Source: Thermus sp. 2.9 (GTDB lineage Bacteria; Deinococcota; Deinococci; Deinococcales; Thermaceae). Taken from it: a stretch of 64,000 bases of DNA. Location: NCBI RefSeq assembly GCF_000794385.1, contig NZ_JTJB01000039.1:1-64000 (forward strand), written 5' to 3'. The notes below the pieces were generated by a model. It searched no databases and was not told the DNA's origin. It saw only the letters and a list, made by a program, of their open reading frames with translations. Within the stretch, counting starts at the first letter, position 1. Every line of letters begins with the position of its first letter. The position numbers and the translations under genes were made by a program. Below, piece by piece: positions 37,635 to 43,380 of this stretch.

Positions 37635-38870
37635 TTAGCGGCCGAGACCCACCTGGTCGGCGATGGCCTGGGCGGCGTTGGCCGCCGCCTTCGGGCTCTT
37701 GGTCTGGAGGAAGATCTCCATCACCGTGCCGAACTGGCTCATGAAGCTTTCCGGCGCCACGGCCCCGTGGACCAAGGAGCCCACGATGCGGTTGGACTTC
37801 CAGTCGCGCATGGCCGCTTGGCCGTAGGCGTTGTACTTGGCGGGGTCGGAGTCCAGGCGGGCGGCGATGGAGCCCTTGAGGGGGTTGAAGGTGTCCTGCC
37901 CTTCCTTAGACCCCACCAGCCGGAGCCAGTTGAGGGCGTTCTGGCGGTTTTTGGCCCCCTTGGGCAGGCCGAAGGAGTCGGAGAGCATCATGAACACCCC
38001 TTGGGTGCCCGGGGAGGGGGCCCAGGCGAAGTCGGTGCCGGGCTTAAGCTTCAGGGTAGTGGTCATGTAGCCAGCGGCCCAGTCACCCATGATGTTGAAG
38101 GCGGCTTGGCCCTGGACAACCCGGTCCACCGCCTGCTGCCAGGAAAGCCCGGCGGCGTCCTTGTTGGCGCAGTCCAGGACCTTGCCAAAGGTTTCCCAGA
38201 CCGCCACCGCCTTGGGGTCGGTGAACTTCAGCTTGCCGTTCCAGAGGTTATTCCAGCCGTCCGCCCCCAGCATGGCCAGGGCCACGCTTTCCCAAAGGTG
38301 CTGCTGCGTCCAGTTCTCGCCCAGGGCCAAGGGGGCTTGGAGGCCCTTCCGCTTGAGGGTCTCGCAGGTGGCGAGGAACTCGGCCCAGGTCTTGGGCGGG
38401 TTCACCCCCCATTCCCTGAGCTTCGCCGGGATGTACCACATGACGTTGGAGCGGTGAATGTTCACCGGCACACTCCAGATGCCCCCCTTGTGGGAAATGA
38501 GGTCAATGAGCCCCTTGGGGAAGGCCTGGAGCCACCCCTCCTGGCGGAAGAGGGGGGTGAGGTCTTCCATGCGGTTGGCCACCACCCAGGTGCCGATGAG
38601 CTCCATGCCGGCGTGGACCTGGAAAGTGTCGGGGGGGTCACCCCCCAGCATCCGGGTCTTGAGCACCGCCTTGGCGTTCACCCCGGCCCCCCCGGTCACC
38701 GTGGCGTTGATGACCTCCACCCCCGGATACTTCTGCTTGTAGAGCCGGATGAGGGCCTCGAGGGCCGGGCCCTCGTCCCCCGCCCACCAGGAGAAGATCT
38801 CCAGCTTGCCCGTTTGGGCCAGGGCGCTAAGCCCCAAGGCCACGCCGAGTACCAAAAGCCATTTCCTCAT
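37635..38870 (-). CDS. Glucose/galactose-type sugar-binding protein
   Basis: Periplasmic CUT1-type solute-binding protein. Signal peptide [19 protein letters not shown], then [28 protein letters not shown]. The sequence strongly resembles the structurally characterised T. thermophilus glucose/galactose-binding protein as I remember it (for example [40 protein letters not shown]). About 411 residues. ATG 38870 has the Shine-Dalgarno GGAGGTAGGT. Its first 44 bp overlap the end of the ROK gene. Known Thermus sugar systems share a MalK-type ATPase encoded elsewhere, consistent with none here. Confidence 0.95.
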
Positions 38871-40020
38871 ACCTACCTCCATTGCGACGTGGGCTTTCCG
38901 CCCACAGGCCGCCGAGCTCAAAGAAGCGCGCCAGGAAGAGGCTCGCCCCGCCCACCGCCGCCGCCAGGTGCCCGTAGGAGGAGGGTTGCACGGAAAGCGC
39001 GCGGTGGGTTTCCAAAAAGGCGTGGTCCGCCAGGGCCTGGCGCAGGGGAGCTTCCAGGAAGGAAAAGAGCTCCGCCGCTTTTCCCCCCACCACCACCCGG
39101 GCGGGGTCGTAGGCCACGGCCAGGTTGGCCAAAAACCGGCCCAGGGCGCTCCCTAGGTGGGCCAAGGCGACTCGGGCCACGGGGTGGCCTGCCTGGGCTT
39201 GGGCCAAGAGGGCCTCGAGGTCCTCCACCTCTCCTCCCAAGGCTCGGTGGTGCTGCAGTAGGGCTCCAAGGCCGAGCTCGGTTTCCAGGCACCCTTTGCG
39301 CCCGCAGGCGCAGGGGGCTTCCCCGGAGCCGAGCCAGTGGCCCACTTCCCCCGCCGCCCCACTCGCCCCCCGGAGGAGGCGCCCATCCGACACCACCCCC
39401 ACCCCAAGGCCCGTGCTTAGGACCAGGTAGGCCAGGTTCTCCTCCCCGTGGAAGAAGACCTCGGAGAGGGCGGAGGCCTTGGCGTCGTTCTCCGCCAAGG
39501 TGGGCAGGGGGAAGGAGGCCAGAAAAGGGCTTAGATCCAGATCCCGCCAGGCCAGGTTGGGGGCGTAGAGGAGCCTGTTTCCCACCACCACGCCGGGCAG
39601 GGTGAAGCCGAGGCCCAGGGCTCCTTGGGCCTCGGGCAGGGTTTCTCGCAGAAGCCGGGCGAAGCGCTCCTCCGGCCCCGCCTCCTTGGCGTGGGCCCAC
39701 TCCTTGGCCCAAAGGACCTCGCCCCGCCAGTCCAGGGCCAGAAGCACGGTACCTTCCACGCCGATTTCCGCCCCCAGGGCGAAGCGGGCCCCAGGGCGGA
39801 GGTGCAAAAGGGTTCCCGGTCGTCCTAAGGGTGGGGAGGTAAAGGCCCCTTCTTCCAGGAGGCCTTCTTGCAGGAGCTCGTCCACCAGGCGGCTCACGGC
39901 GCTTTTCGCAAGACCCGTGAGCCGGGACAGGTCAGCACGGGTGAGGGGACCCCGCCTCAGGTGGCCCAAGATGGCCCGGCGGTTGAGCCTGCGGATTTCC
40001 TGCGTGTCCCCCTTGCGCAC
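38827..40020 (-). CDS. ROK-family sugar-responsive transcriptional repressor
   Basis: 397 residues: winged helix (about 8-60, [41 protein letters not shown]) fused to a ROK domain. The ATP/sugar-binding signature [34 protein letters not shown] and the zinc-binding block [10 protein letters not shown] are present. GTG 40020 start. It is first in the minus-strand sugar ABC operon and overlaps the binding-protein gene by 44 bp, so it most likely autoregulates and controls uptake of the sugar it senses. An inverted repeat lies at its promoter. Confidence 0.9.
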
Positions 40021-40085: not shown

Positions 40086-40114
40086 TTGTCAGCAAGGGCG
40101 AAGTGCCTTAGCCT
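40086..40114 (+). promoter_or_regulatory. Promoter of the B12 operon
   Basis: TTGTCA (40086-40091) and TAGCCT (40109-40114) are 17 bp apart, placing the start near 40121, about 30 nt before the riboswitch. It is back to back with the ROK promoter, with only 4 bp between the two -35 boxes. Confidence 0.65.
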
Positions 40115-40153
40115 AAGGGCAAGGCCCGCTAGGGCCCCAAAGCCAGGTCCGTT

Positions 40154-40287
40154 GCCCTGGTGCCTGGGCGCGTAGTCCAGGCTTAAAGTGGGGAAGTCCG
40201 GTGCAAGTCCGGCGCTGTCCCGCAACGGTAACCGGCCACGCTACGAGCTTTTCTTCGCAGGCCGGAAGCCCGAATACCTGCCAGGGC
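40154..40287 (+). promoter_or_regulatory. Cobalamin riboswitch (aptamer)
   Basis: The closing helix P1 pairs GCCCTGG (40154-40160) with CCAGGGC (40281-40287). Inside are AGTCCGGTGCAAGTCCGGC, the B12 box (40206-40231, containing GCTGTCCCGCAACGGTAA) and the terminal CGAATACCTG. These are the most conserved landmarks of adenosyl/methylcobalamin riboswitches. The downstream operon encodes a B12-type ABC importer, which fits. The whole 40021-40441 interval is otherwise non-coding leader and promoters. Confidence 0.95.
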
Positions 40288-40288
40288 C

Positions 40289-40311
40289 GCCCGCCCTTCC
40301 CCAGGGCGGGC
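40289..40311 (+). other. Hairpin A of the riboswitch expression platform
   Basis: GCCCGCCCT (40289-40297) pairs perfectly with AGGGCGGGC (40303-40311), loop TCCCC. It begins one base after P1. There is no following U run, so it is not a classical terminator. Confidence 0.7.
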
Positions 40312-40356
40312 ACCTCACGCGGATGGGGGAGCGTTGGGGGCTTCTTTAGCTTTTCA

Positions 40357-40382
40357 CGCCCCTGCCGCTTCTGGCAGGGGCG
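40357..40382 (+). other. Hairpin B of the riboswitch expression platform
   Basis: CGCCCCTGCC (40357-40366) pairs perfectly with GGCAGGGGCG (40373-40382), a 10-bp stem with loop GCTTCT. It ends four bases before the anti-Shine-Dalgarno strand. Confidence 0.7.
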
Positions 40383-40386
40383 TTGC

Positions 40387-40440
40387 CCTACCTCCCCCGG
40401 GCCCGGCGCACCTGGCCCTAGCGGCCTGAAGGGAGGTAGG
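40387..40440 (+). promoter_or_regulatory. Shine-Dalgarno sequestering helix
   Basis: CCTACCTCCC (40387-40396) is the exact reverse complement of GGGAGGTAGG (40431-40440), the ribosome-binding site one base before ATG 40442. Pairing would bury the whole Shine-Dalgarno in a 10-bp stem, implying translational control by the riboswitch. Confidence 0.75.
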
Positions 40441-40441
40441 C

Positions 40442-41296
40442 ATGAAGAAGCTTTGGGCGTTTTTCTCGGTTCTCCTGGCCTTGGCCTTCGCTTTTCCCGT
40501 CACCCTCACGGACGACCTGGGGCGCCAGGTCACGCTAAAAGCCCCGCCTAAGCGCATTGTTTCCATGTTGCCCTCGGTGACGGAAACGGTTTGCGCCCTT
40601 GGGGCCTGCGACCGCCTGGTGGCCACGGACGACTACTCCGACTGGCCGGAAAGCGTCAAGAAGCTTCCCAAGGCCGGGGGGCTTTACAACCCCAACCCCG
40701 AGCTCATCGTCTCTTTGAAGCCCGACTTGGTCCTGGTTTCCCGCTACGGGAAGCTATATGAAACCCTGGAACGGGCGGGGCTCACCGTGTTCGTGGTGCG
40801 CACGGAAACCTACGAGGATATCTTCAAAACGGTGCGCACCGTGGCGCAGCTTTTGGGGCTTTCCGCCCAAGGGGAAAGGCTTGTGGCCCAGATCCAGAGG
40901 GAGGTCTACCAGGAGGAGGCCCGAGCGGCCAAGGCCAAGGGGAGGCCCCGGGTCTACTACGAGATTGACCCCACCCCATACACCGTGGGGCCGGAGAGCT
41001 TCATCGGGGTCCTCATCCAGAAGGCTAGGGGGGTGAACATTGTCCCCAAGGAGCTTGGGCTTTTCCCCAAGATCGCCCCCGAGTTCGTGGTGGAGAAAAA
41101 CCCCGAGGTGATCGTGGCCACCTACCCGAACGCCCGGGAAACCATCCAGAGCCGGCCGGGCTGGAGCCGGGTGAGGGCGGTGCAGACGGGGAGGATCTGC
41201 GTGTACACAGGGGGGGAGGACAACCTCCTCTCCCGCCCCGGTCCCCGGGTGGCCCAAGGGCTTAGGCTCCTGGTGGACTGCTTCCACGGGCGCTAG
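40442..41296 (+). CDS. B12-type ABC transporter substrate-binding protein (BtuF-like)
   Basis: Class III periplasmic binding protein for cobalamin or a related corrinoid. Signal peptide MKKLWAFFSVLLALAFAFP, then VTLTDDLGRQVTLKAPPKRIVSMLPSVTETVCALGACDRLVATDDYSDWP, the BtuF/FhuD fold signature. 284 residues. The riboswitch immediately upstream makes B12 the most likely ligand. First gene of a four-gene operon; next start 3 nt after its stop. Confidence 0.93.
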   Translation: MKKLWAFFSVLLALAFAFPVTLTDDLGRQVTLKAPPKRIVSMLPSVTETVCALGACDRLVATDDYSDWPESVKKLPKAGGLYNPNPELIVSLKPDLVLVSRYGKLYETLERAGLTVFVVRTETYEDIFKTVRTVAQLLGLSAQGERLVAQIQREVYQEEARAAKAKGRPRVYYEIDPTPYTVGPESFIGVLIQKARGVNIVPKELGLFPKIAPEFVVEKNPEVIVATYPNARETIQSRPGWSRVRAVQTGRICVYTGGEDNLLSRPGPRVAQGLRLLVDCFHGR

Positions 41297-41299
41297 GCC

Positions 41300-42328
41300 A
41301 TGACCTTGTCCCTGCCCCTCGCCCTCAAGCGGAGCCTCGTCTTCGCCTGGCTCCTCGCCCTTTTGTCCATAGCCCTGGTCCTGGGGCTCGCCCTGGGGGC
41401 GGTGGCGGTGCCCCCCGGGGACGTGGTGCGGGCCCTTTTGGGCCTCCAGGAAAACCCCATCATCACCGAGCTTCGCCTGCCCAGGGTCCTCGGGGGGATG
41501 CTGGTGGGGGCGGCCTTGGGGGTGGCGGGGGCCGCCTTCCAGGGCCTATTCCGCAACCCCTTGGCCGATCCCTACCTCATGGGGGCCGCCTCGGGGGCGG
41601 CCTTCGGCGTGACCCTTTTGGCGGTTCTTCTGGGGGGGCTTTCCCCCGCCTTCGCCCAGCACGCCGTCTTCCAGGGCCTTCCCCTTTCCGCTACCCTCTT
41701 TGGCTTCCTGGGGGCCCTTTTCGCCACCTTGCTCACCCTGGTCCTGGCCGGGGGGGTGGCGCGGACCGGGGAGCTGGTCCTGGCGGGGGTGGTGGTGGGA
41801 AGCGTCCTCACGGGGCTGACCACCTACCTGATGCTCCAGGACGCCGACCGGGTCCGGGCGGTCTTCGCCTACACCCTGGGGAACCTGGCCTTTTTGGGCT
41901 GGCCGGGGGTGAGGGCCTTGGCCGTTTTCCTCCTCCTCGCCTTGCCGCCCCTTCTCCTCCTGGGCCGGGTGCTCAATGCGCTGCAACTGGGGGAGGAGGT
42001 GGCGCGGAGCCTGGGGCTTCCCCTGAATGGGCTAAAGCTTCTCCTTTTGGCCGCGGCGAGCCTCCTCACCGCCGCCAGCGTGGCCCAGGCGGGGATCATC
42101 GGCTTCGTGGGGCTCGTCACCCCTCACGCCCTGAGGCGGCTTTTGGGGGAAGACTACCGCCTGCTCCTTCCGGCGAGCGCCCTGGGCGGGGCCGCCCTCC
42201 TGGCCCTGGCCGACCTCCTCGCCCGCACCCTCACCCGGCCGGCGGAGCTACCCGTGGGGGTGGTGACCACGCTCCTCGGGGGGCCCTTCTTCCTCTACCT
42301 CCTTTGGAGGCGGCGTGGACGGGCTTGA
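41300..42328 (+). CDS. B12-type ABC transporter permease (BtuC/FecCD family)
   Basis: 342 residues, about ten hydrophobic helices. FecCD signatures: LRLPRVLGGMLVGAALGVAGAAFQGLFRNPLADPYLMGAASGAAFGV and GIIGFVGLVTPHALRRLLGEDYRLLLPASALGGAALLALAD. Partner of the BtuF-like and BtuD-like proteins. The ATPase gene begins inside its last 14 bp. Confidence 0.94.
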   Translation: MTLSLPLALKRSLVFAWLLALLSIALVLGLALGAVAVPPGDVVRALLGLQENPIITELRLPRVLGGMLVGAALGVAGAAFQGLFRNPLADPYLMGAASGAAFGVTLLAVLLGGLSPAFAQHAVFQGLPLSATLFGFLGALFATLLTLVLAGGVARTGELVLAGVVVGSVLTGLTTYLMLQDADRVRAVFAYTLGNLAFLGWPGVRALAVFLLLALPPLLLLGRVLNALQLGEEVARSLGLPLNGLKLLLLAAASLLTAASVAQAGIIGFVGLVTPHALRRLLGEDYRLLLPASALGGAALLALADLLARTLTRPAELPVGVVTTLLGGPFFLYLLWRRRGRA

Positions 42329-43067
42329 GGCGAGGGGAGTGGCGGGGCCTTTCGCCCTAAAGGGGGTGGACCTCAGGGTGCGCCCGGGGGAATGGGTGGC
42401 CCTCCTCGGGCCCAACGGCTCCGGCAAGACCACCCTTCTTAGGGTGATGGCGGGGCTCCTTAAGCCCAAGCGGGGGGCGGTGTACCTGGAGGGGAAGCCT
42501 CTTGAGGCCTATGGGAGCTACGCCCGGGGCCGCCTCCTCGCCTACCTGCCCCAAGGGGGGCCTTACCCCGAGGGGCTTTTGGTGGAGGAGGTGGTGCGCC
42601 TGGGGCGGCTTCCCTACCTGGGGTTATGGGGCAGGGAAGGGGAGGCGGACCTCGAGGCGGTGGCCTGGGCCCTGGAGGCGGCGGGGGCGGCCCACCTAAA
42701 GGGGCGGCTCCTCGGCACCCTCTCCGGGGGGGAGCGGCAAAGGGTCCTCCTGGCCCGCGCCCTGGCGGCGAGGCCTCGCTACCTCCTCCTGGACGAGCCC
42801 ACCACCTATTTGGACCTGGAGCACCAAGGGGAGGTGGTGGCCCTCCTTAGGGCCCTGGTGGCGCGGGGTGTGGGGGTGCTTTCGGTCCTCCACGATCCCA
42901 ACCAGGCGGCCCTGGCTCACCGGGTGGCGGTGTTGCGGGAGGGGCGGCTTGTGGCGGAGGGGGCGCCCTGGGCGGTGCTGACAGAGCCCCTCCTCCGGGG
43001 GCTCTACGGGCGCCGGGTGCGGGTGGCCCTCCTGGAGGGGAGGCCCCATGTCTACCTGGACGGATAG
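42315..43067 (+). CDS. B12-type ABC transporter ATP-binding protein (BtuD-like)
   Basis: 250 residues. Walker A GPNGSGKTT, Q-loop AYLPQGGPYPEGLLVEEVV, signature LSGGERQRVLLARALAARPRYLLLDEPTTYLDLEHQ including Walker B, and H-loop VLHDPNQAALAHRV. These are the iron-chelate/B12 subfamily patterns. GTG start. The next gene starts 20 bp before its stop. Confidence 0.94.
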   Translation: MDGLEARGVAGPFALKGVDLRVRPGEWVALLGPNGSGKTTLLRVMAGLLKPKRGAVYLEGKPLEAYGSYARGRLLAYLPQGGPYPEGLLVEEVVRLGRLPYLGLWGREGEADLEAVAWALEAAGAAHLKGRLLGTLSGGERQRVLLARALAARPRYLLLDEPTTYLDLEHQGEVVALLRALVARGVGVLSVLHDPNQAALAHRVAVLREGRLVAEGAPWAVLTEPLLRGLYGRRVRVALLEGRPHVYLDG

Positions 43068-43380
43068 GGCCCGGCTCTACGTGCGGGGCCGGGCGCTCCT
43101 TCTAGACCTGGGCAAGGAAACCCCTTTTTACACGGAAAGCGGCCCCAGGCGGGCCCGCTACCTCCTGGTGGGCCGGCTTTCCCCCCCGGAGTGGCTTCGC
43201 CTTGGCCTTCCCCGCGAGGGGGTGCTCCACTACCCCCTTCCCGTGGACCCCTTCACCTTTGAGTGGGAGGGGGAAACCCTCCTTCTGCCGGGGCTACGGG
43301 TGTACTTGGGCGGGCCGCCGCCCTTCGTGGAAACGCCCTTTTTCGCCTGGCGCTTGACGGAGGAGGGGGCAAAGGGGTAG
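43048..43380 (+). CDS. Unknown small protein, last gene of the B12 operon
   Basis: 110 residues, ATG within the ATPase gene (20-bp overlap), so almost certainly co-translated. No signal peptide or membrane helix; beta-rich with ARLYVRGRALLLDLGKETPFYTESGPRRARYLLVGRLSPPEWLRLGLPREGVLHYPLPVDPFTFEWEGETLLLPGLRVYLGGPPPFVETPF-type alternation of short strands and glycines. I recognise no family. The riboswitch context suggests a role in corrinoid handling, which is inference only. Confidence 0.65.
   Translation: MSTWTDRARLYVRGRALLLDLGKETPFYTESGPRRARYLLVGRLSPPEWLRLGLPREGVLHYPLPVDPFTFEWEGETLLLPGLRVYLGGPPPFVETPFFAWRLTEEGAKG

Follow-up and report, generated by a model that had tools for sequence, protein, structure and literature searches.

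The leader of the btuF-btuC-btuD-like operon of Thermus sp. 2.9 is likely to be an RF00174-type cobalamin riboswitch that turns the operon OFF at the level of translation, by means of a P13 switch and a mask over the Shine-Dalgarno (SD) sequence, and it has an outer clamp that encloses the aptamer. The aptamer and the SD mask are of a known kind, and the clamp is apparently a new, undescribed part. Positions refer to the window, that is, the whole stretch of 64,000 nucleotides that was analysed. The elements of the leader and the operon are as follows.

40086-40114 (+), predicted promoter TTGTCA-17-TAGCCT, based on recurrence of the motif in relatives; expected transcript start near 40121.
40123-40136 (+), 5'-terminal hairpin GGCCC-GCTA-GGGCC; a C-run/G-run hairpin is present in 60/60 leaders.
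40126-40136 (+), segment b of the clamp 5' strand, CCGCTAGGGCC, an 11-bp complement of 40414-40424 that overlaps the 5' hairpin.
40141-40299 (+), RF00174 cobalamin aptamer, 67.1 bits against a gathering score of 31.5 (covariance model).
40142-40148 (+), segment a of the clamp 5' strand, GCCAGGT, which pairs with 40410-40416 and covaries across genera.
40218-40222 (+), L5 loop UCCCG, in agreement with the published L5 kissing-loop consensus UCCCG (PMC10653944).
40289-40311 (+), hairpin 1, GCCCGCCCT-TCCCC-AGGGCGGGC, 9 bp, exact; a spacer between the aptamer and P13.
40313-40328 (+), P13, CCTCA/TGGGG, 5 bp, with L13 CGCGGA (40318-40323).
40325-40331 (+), switching strand GGGGGAG (anti-anti-SD), common to P13 and to a helix with CTCCCCC (40392-40398) that appears in unconstrained folding and RNAalifold.
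40357-40382 (+), hairpin 2, CGCCCCTGCC-GCTTCT-GGCAGGGGCG, 10 bp, exact.
40387-40396 (+), anti-SD CCTACCTCCC, the exact complement of the SD.
40410-40424 (+), clamp 3' strand between anti-SD and SD, composed of ACCTGGC (40410-40416) and GGCCCTAGCGG (40414-40424), which have GGC in common.
40431-40440 (+), Shine-Dalgarno sequence GGGAGGTAGG, with the ATG at 40442.
40442-41296 (+), the regulated gene, encoding a btuF-like B12/corrinoid binding protein (PF01497, E 6.6e-32; NCBIfam BtuF-like, under cut-off).
41300-42328 (+), btuC-like permease (FecCD, E 9.6e-86; top NCBIfam match BtuC, under cut-off).
42315-43067 (+), btuD-like ATPase (ABC_tran, E 2.8e-31).

The initial annotation had placed a cobalamin aptamer at 40154-40287, and the clear RF00174 match at this position confirmed the assignment. 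The Thermus sp. 2.9 genome contains four RF00174 matches, and at least one was found in 27/27 of the Thermus genomes searched; Rfam matches to anti-hemB and HOXB13-AS1 were far under the cut-off and were regarded as chance. Both the B12 box, AGCCCGAAT(A/G)CCTGCC, and TGTCCCGC were kept across all of the Thermus orthologs. The latter, which lies in the L5 region, was unvaried in 26 Thermus leaders and in 13 leaders from a second family of the order (f4), which we take to be Marinithermaceae. The riboswitch stands 5' of a B12 transport operon, as is expected of RF00174, and the leader would be expected to bind and respond to cobalamin. Between the btuD-like gene and an SDR gene there is a small ORF of 110 aa (43048-43380, +) with no Pfam or NCBIfam match.

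Most of the 60 btuF leaders have the motif TTGNC(N)-17/18-TA(N)3T, followed 7-13 nt downstream by the 5' hairpin, and on this basis the promoter may lie at 40086-40114 and the transcript may start near 40121; a stricter sigma-70 scan returned no site. The intergenic region is common to the predicted riboswitch promoter and a divergent ROK-family regulator (Mlc/NagC-like with an HTH; 38827-40020, -), which adjoins a sugar ABC transporter and so is probably unrelated to B12. A crude check, in which gene starts are uncertain, detected an SD-like motif in 10 of the 24 presumed first-of-operon genes of the window, a result that agrees with, but is too weak to prove, the statement of the initial annotation that most genes here are leaderless.

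As had been claimed in the initial annotation, the SD is faced by an exact 10-bp mask, in which the anti-SD is fully complementary to the SD. An exact 10-mer complement of the SD arose in 6/5,000 dinucleotide shuffles of 40141-40430; chance is therefore an unlikely explanation, but because the leader is GC-rich such a match is less rare than it appears. The best-helix shuffle test gave a weak value of 0.14 for the window, due to a scanned SD region that was two bases short and to the GC-rich leader, and the significance of the mask is carried by the exact 10-mer test and by conservation. Lack of conservation had been named beforehand as the result that would count against the mask; the pairing was kept in 26/26 of the aligned orthologous Thermus btuF leaders, with the identical 10 bp in 20, one G-U pair in five and 8/10 pairs in one, so that 25 are full-length with at most one G-U. 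The anti-SD was unvaried in Thermus except in L015, where a single C to T change produces a wobble pair, while the SD variants were GGGAGGTGGG in four leaders, in which a G-U pair remains, and AGGAGGTCGG in L027, in which 8/10 pairs remain. The mask was also present in L042, and in the 13 leaders of the second family it took the form of an 8-bp helix of CCACCTCC with GGAGGTGG, in which the third pair is C-G for U-A, a compensatory change. Conserved pairing was thus found in 40 leaders in total, with the U-A to C-G compensation at position 3, and on this comparative evidence the anti-SD:SD pairing is established. Since the second family has the mask with this compensatory change, the mask is older than Thermus. 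Translational gating through an SD-masking helix, as proposed in the initial annotation, was supported by the Thermus conservation and the compensatory pair.

The masking half of the switch had been correctly described; what had been missed was P13/L13, the pairing of GGGGGAG with CTCCCCC, the 5' hairpin, the outer clamp and the terminators of the relatives. In every Thermus leader CACCTCACGCGGATGGGGG lies directly 3' of hairpin 1, and P13, L13 and the rest of the switching strand span 40311-40331. The fifth, closing pair of P13 is A-U in Thermus and U-A in the second family, in L042 and in the Meiothermus-type leaders, our label for genera g2-g4 of the same family as Thermus. A further subset has another GC-rich stem as P13, with double changes (CG to UA, UA to GC). 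L13 matches L5 imperfectly, over 4 bp (CGG and A with UCC(C)G) and with a single bulged C, and the two loops vary together only loosely across genera; it resembles the bulged kissing loop reported for A. halodurans cobT (PMC10653944).

The switching strand GGGGGAG is complementary to CTCCCCC, which lies within and beyond the anti-SD, and RNAalifold paired the switching strand with the anti-SD (col 220-225 with 291-296). In the unconstrained partition function of the window leader at 37 C the two states were evenly matched, with P(anti-SD:SD) at 0.48 and GGGGAG:CTCCCC at 0.47. P13 was then forced, to imitate the kissing state with ligand bound, using a 6-bp core and RNA ends slightly different from those of the unconstrained fold (hence a starting value of 0.52 and not 0.48). 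For the window species P(anti-SD:SD) then reached 1.0 at 37 C, up from 0.52, and 0.99 at 65 C, up from 0.77. Across Thermus the mean rose from 0.29 to 0.58 at 37 C, and only part of the leaders flipped; in the nested models of the strong-clamp leaders L005, L007 and L009 the clamp still won with P13 forced. The fold models and RNAalifold suggest that GGGGGAG:CTCCCCC is an alternative pairing that can free the SD in the cell.

In the proposed mechanism, a transcript that is predicted to start near 40121 would fold the 5' hairpin and the aptamer. With cobalamin bound, the L5 UCCCG loop would kiss L13, as judged by homology, and stabilise P13; P13 would then hold GGGGGAG, leaving the anti-SD free to form its 10-bp pairing with the SD and so to block ribosomes, which is the OFF state. 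In the absence of cobalamin, P13 would open and GGGGGAG would take the CTCCCCC of the anti-SD, as in the modelled alternative fold, exposing the SD in the ON state. The outer clamp may make the leader its own domain, which would keep the SD free when the switch is ON; in Thermus it would compete with the SD mask. Since forced P13 flipped only part of the Thermus leaders, the OFF state would have to be a pseudoknot, or the folding kinetic.

This predicted logic agrees with that of published class-I B12 switches. The same exchange of anti-anti-SD, anti-SD and SD occurs in the RF00174 translational OFF switches of E. coli btuB and M. tuberculosis metE, which also resemble the window leader in the aptamer, the UCCCG L5, P13/L13 and a B12-related target; the M. 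tuberculosis metE version of this three-strand logic (TIR, alphaTIR and alpha-alphaTIR) has mutational support (PMC11260477). The window leader differs from both in the addition of the outer clamp, from 5' of the aptamer to 5' of the SD, and in a P13 strand that in Thermus is common to the terminator-type platform of sister genera. In the Priestia megaterium metE corrinoid riboswitch, where the logic works as an antiterminator and also has mutational support, the 3' side of P13 likewise captures a downstream C-rich strand without corrinoid (PMC10653944); that switch is transcriptional, whereas in the window the captured strand is the anti-SD and there is no terminator.

Both of the perfect GC-rich hairpins reported in the initial annotation at 40289-40311 and 40357-40382 were found to be exact, and its statement that no U-tract terminator is present also held, since a search of the window for a GC hairpin followed by a U-tract found none. 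Hairpin 1 is a P12-like spacer, and a hairpin at its position covaries in Thermus and other Thermaceae. Hairpin 2 is probably a decayed intrinsic terminator. In the btuF leaders of Meiothermus type the same P13 switching strand, here GGGGGAGTTTCGGGGA, lies opposite TCCTCACTCCC, part of an intrinsic terminator that ends in about seven T; in the second family a terminator-like hairpin lies 5' of the SD mask, with a T-run in some leaders (L083, L084), and hairpin 2 of Thermus occupies the same place as this hairpin. Decay from a terminator, and the direction of that change, are suggested by these alignments.

The switch could instead act mainly on transcription; hairpin 2 would then terminate transcripts in Thermus as well, and the SD mask would be secondary. 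The hairpins and T-runs of the Meiothermus-type leaders fit this reading, as do the 3-5 T that follow hairpin 2 in 20/26 of the Thermus orthologs, and platforms that combine a terminator with RBS masking are known for this riboswitch class from Barrick and Breaker 2007 (PMC2258182). We consider it improbable, since in the window species hairpin 2 is followed by CGTTG, with only two T (as in five other Thermus), the terminator search found nothing, and no strand is evident that could open the 10-bp hairpin. The dual platforms are alike in that a single leader may be subject to both a terminator and RBS masking; in those cases the RBS lies inside the terminator hairpin, whereas in the second family the terminator-like hairpin and the SD mask are separate and in series.

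The outer clamp joins a segment just 5' of the aptamer, after the 5' hairpin, to a segment just 5' of the SD. A helix of at least 7 bp was present in 60/60 btuF leaders from two families, with 31 helix sequence types, and its 3' strand was always located immediately 5' of the SD, at 11-31 nt upstream of the start codon. In the relatives the paired strands were CAACCCGGTC/GACCGGGTTG (L037), GCTTGGCA/TGCCAAGC (L033), GCTCGGCC/GGCCGAGC (L057), CAGCTCGAGC/GCTCGAGCTG (L061) and CGCGAGGCCGCC/GGCGGCCTCGCG (L087). Within Thermus, segment b was kept with G-U pairs or one altered end, and the clamp of L025, GCCAAGGTCCCG/CGGGGCTTTGGC, carries a paired insertion relative to other Thermus. Pairing of segment b (40126-40136 with 40414-40424) competes with the 5' hairpin, the stem of which itself covaries in the non-Thermus Thermaceae (alignment col 22-33: GC, CG, AU).

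Because GC content and wrongly chosen segments at some loci distort a cross-species duplex test without permutation, a permutation test with a sliding-window control was used. The clamp helix scored 12.84 with its own partner and 9.36 across species (z 9.5), and 0/5,000 permutations among the 31 types reached the own-partner score; own complementarity also exceeded the permutations within the second family alone and within the other Thermaceae alone. In the sliding-window control only the clamp segment stood out (z 9.9); the highest value among unrelated windows was 4.3. RNAalifold recovered the clamp unprompted in 20 non-Thermus Thermaceae leaders, in which 95 percent of cells paired and 23 cells were doubly changed, compared to 6.9 in shuffles; when the clamp was slid by one column pairing fell to 43-58 percent. 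The clamp did not appear when RNAalifold was run on the second family alone, where the 3' end was misaligned and the anti-SD mispaired with the leader. Most of the covariation of the clamp and the anti-SD comes from the relatives, because both are nearly invariant within Thermus. Covariation in two families, a comparative criterion, thus establishes the outer clamp as an RNA helix.

It is highly improbable that the conserved inverted segments form an operator in the DNA, bound by a transcription factor, and not an RNA helix: GGCCCGCTAGGGCC is nearly palindromic and is located at the promoter, but 31 helix sequences covary as RNA complements some 300 nt apart and the signal is confined to those segments. 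A search of the open-access literature, with subscription journals outside its scope, yielded no account of either the clamp or these B12 leaders. In one Meiothermus-type leader, L048, a genus-type clamp is accompanied by a segment before the btuF start, CCTAGCG, that is complementary to the leader's own 5' hairpin, as in Thermus; this leader is possibly an intermediate.

To model removal of the clamp its pairs were softly penalised, since hard constraints leave the bases concerned with no pairing at all (ddG near 50 kcal/mol). At 65 C the penalty reduced SD accessibility from 0.52 to 0.17 in Thermus, from 0.67 to 0.32 in other Thermaceae and from 0.61 to 0.26 in the second family; in these nested models accessibility was higher with the clamp in 54/60 leaders and lower in none. 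Pseudoknots, tertiary contacts and ligand are outside the scope of the fold models, in which, by construction, the clamp of Thermus excludes the mask. The models suggest that the clamp is either an ON-state insulator or part of an OFF-state pseudoknot. Insulation, in which the clamp would close the GC-rich leader on itself with the SD left outside, is the simplest reading, because the accessibility effect also holds in leaders without an anti-SD. We tentatively propose, as a reading that may well not hold, that the clamp is a separate ligand-coupled element that sets SD availability in both families, whether the switch is transcriptional or translational, and that the platform has changed between a terminator and an SD mask while the clamp and the P13 strand stayed fixed.

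The loop of the SD mask contains the clamp 3' strand in Thermus and the second family, so that clamp and mask either compete or form a pseudoknot. A constitutive clamp that pairs with the 24-34 nt mask loop could lock the mask in the OFF state, and so repress rather than insulate. The clamp 3' strand has linkers on both sides within the anti-SD/SD loop, where a 6-11 bp helix could fit, and the nested model of several Thermus reaches OFF only if clamp and mask coexist. Since several Thermus stay ON in that model with P13 forced, a pseudoknot or a kinetic switch is favoured for those species. As a general account, however, coexistence of clamp and mask is rather unlikely: the full clamp (11 bp plus 7 bp) together with the 10-bp mask would strain the linkers, and the Meiothermus-type leaders, mostly without an anti-SD, still keep the clamp just 5' of the SD, so that conservation of the clamp does not need the mask.

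The clamp and the 5' hairpin might also serve mRNA stability, the paired extreme 5' end guarding against 5'-end-dependent decay and the proximity to the SD being incidental. The 5' hairpin starts near the predicted transcription start in all leaders, and a conserved hairpin (P0) likewise precedes the aptamer at the very 5' end of M. tuberculosis metE (PMC11260477), although the Thermus hairpin shares bases with one strand of the long-range clamp. A role in stability alone gives no reason for the 3' strand always to lie just 5' of the SD, and this explanation is considered unlikely.

Two further groups of RF00174 matches were seen. One is a cobalamin riboswitch that precedes a nickel/cobalt-permease-like gene in Thermus and a sister genus (L002, L031, L032, L043 and L062-L069; in this genome G000:C7:21499-21661), with GCCTC/GAGGC masking around an unvaried CTGCCCCCGAGCAGGGG hairpin. 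The masked SD serves an upstream ORF of 20-22 codons, the stop of which overlaps the permease start as NTGA in 12/12 leaders, and this riboswitch looks like one that gates a coupled uORF, an arrangement that was compared with M. tuberculosis ppe2 (PMC11260477). The other group (L003, L004, L030, L044, L070-L081 and L099) matches RF00174 weakly, at about 33-43 bits. Its core, CCCCGTAGCCCTCGAGGCAAGGGTGAAGGTGGTGATGCCTGTGGGACC(C/T)TAG, is strongly conserved and in most members contains a five-codon ORF, MPVGP; the group is mostly located upstream of an acyl-CoA thioesterase-like ORF, unexpected as a B12 target.

The outer clamp is absent from the Rfam model and from aptamer-only constructs, and most in vitro work would lose one or both of its two strands. 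If the reading of the btuF leaders is right, one orthologous riboswitch would provide a natural series, from a terminator in the Meiothermus-type leaders, through a terminator-like hairpin plus SD mask in the second family, to the SD mask of Thermus. The switching strand would be constant across this series, and the interconversion of transcriptional and translational platforms would then be directly testable.
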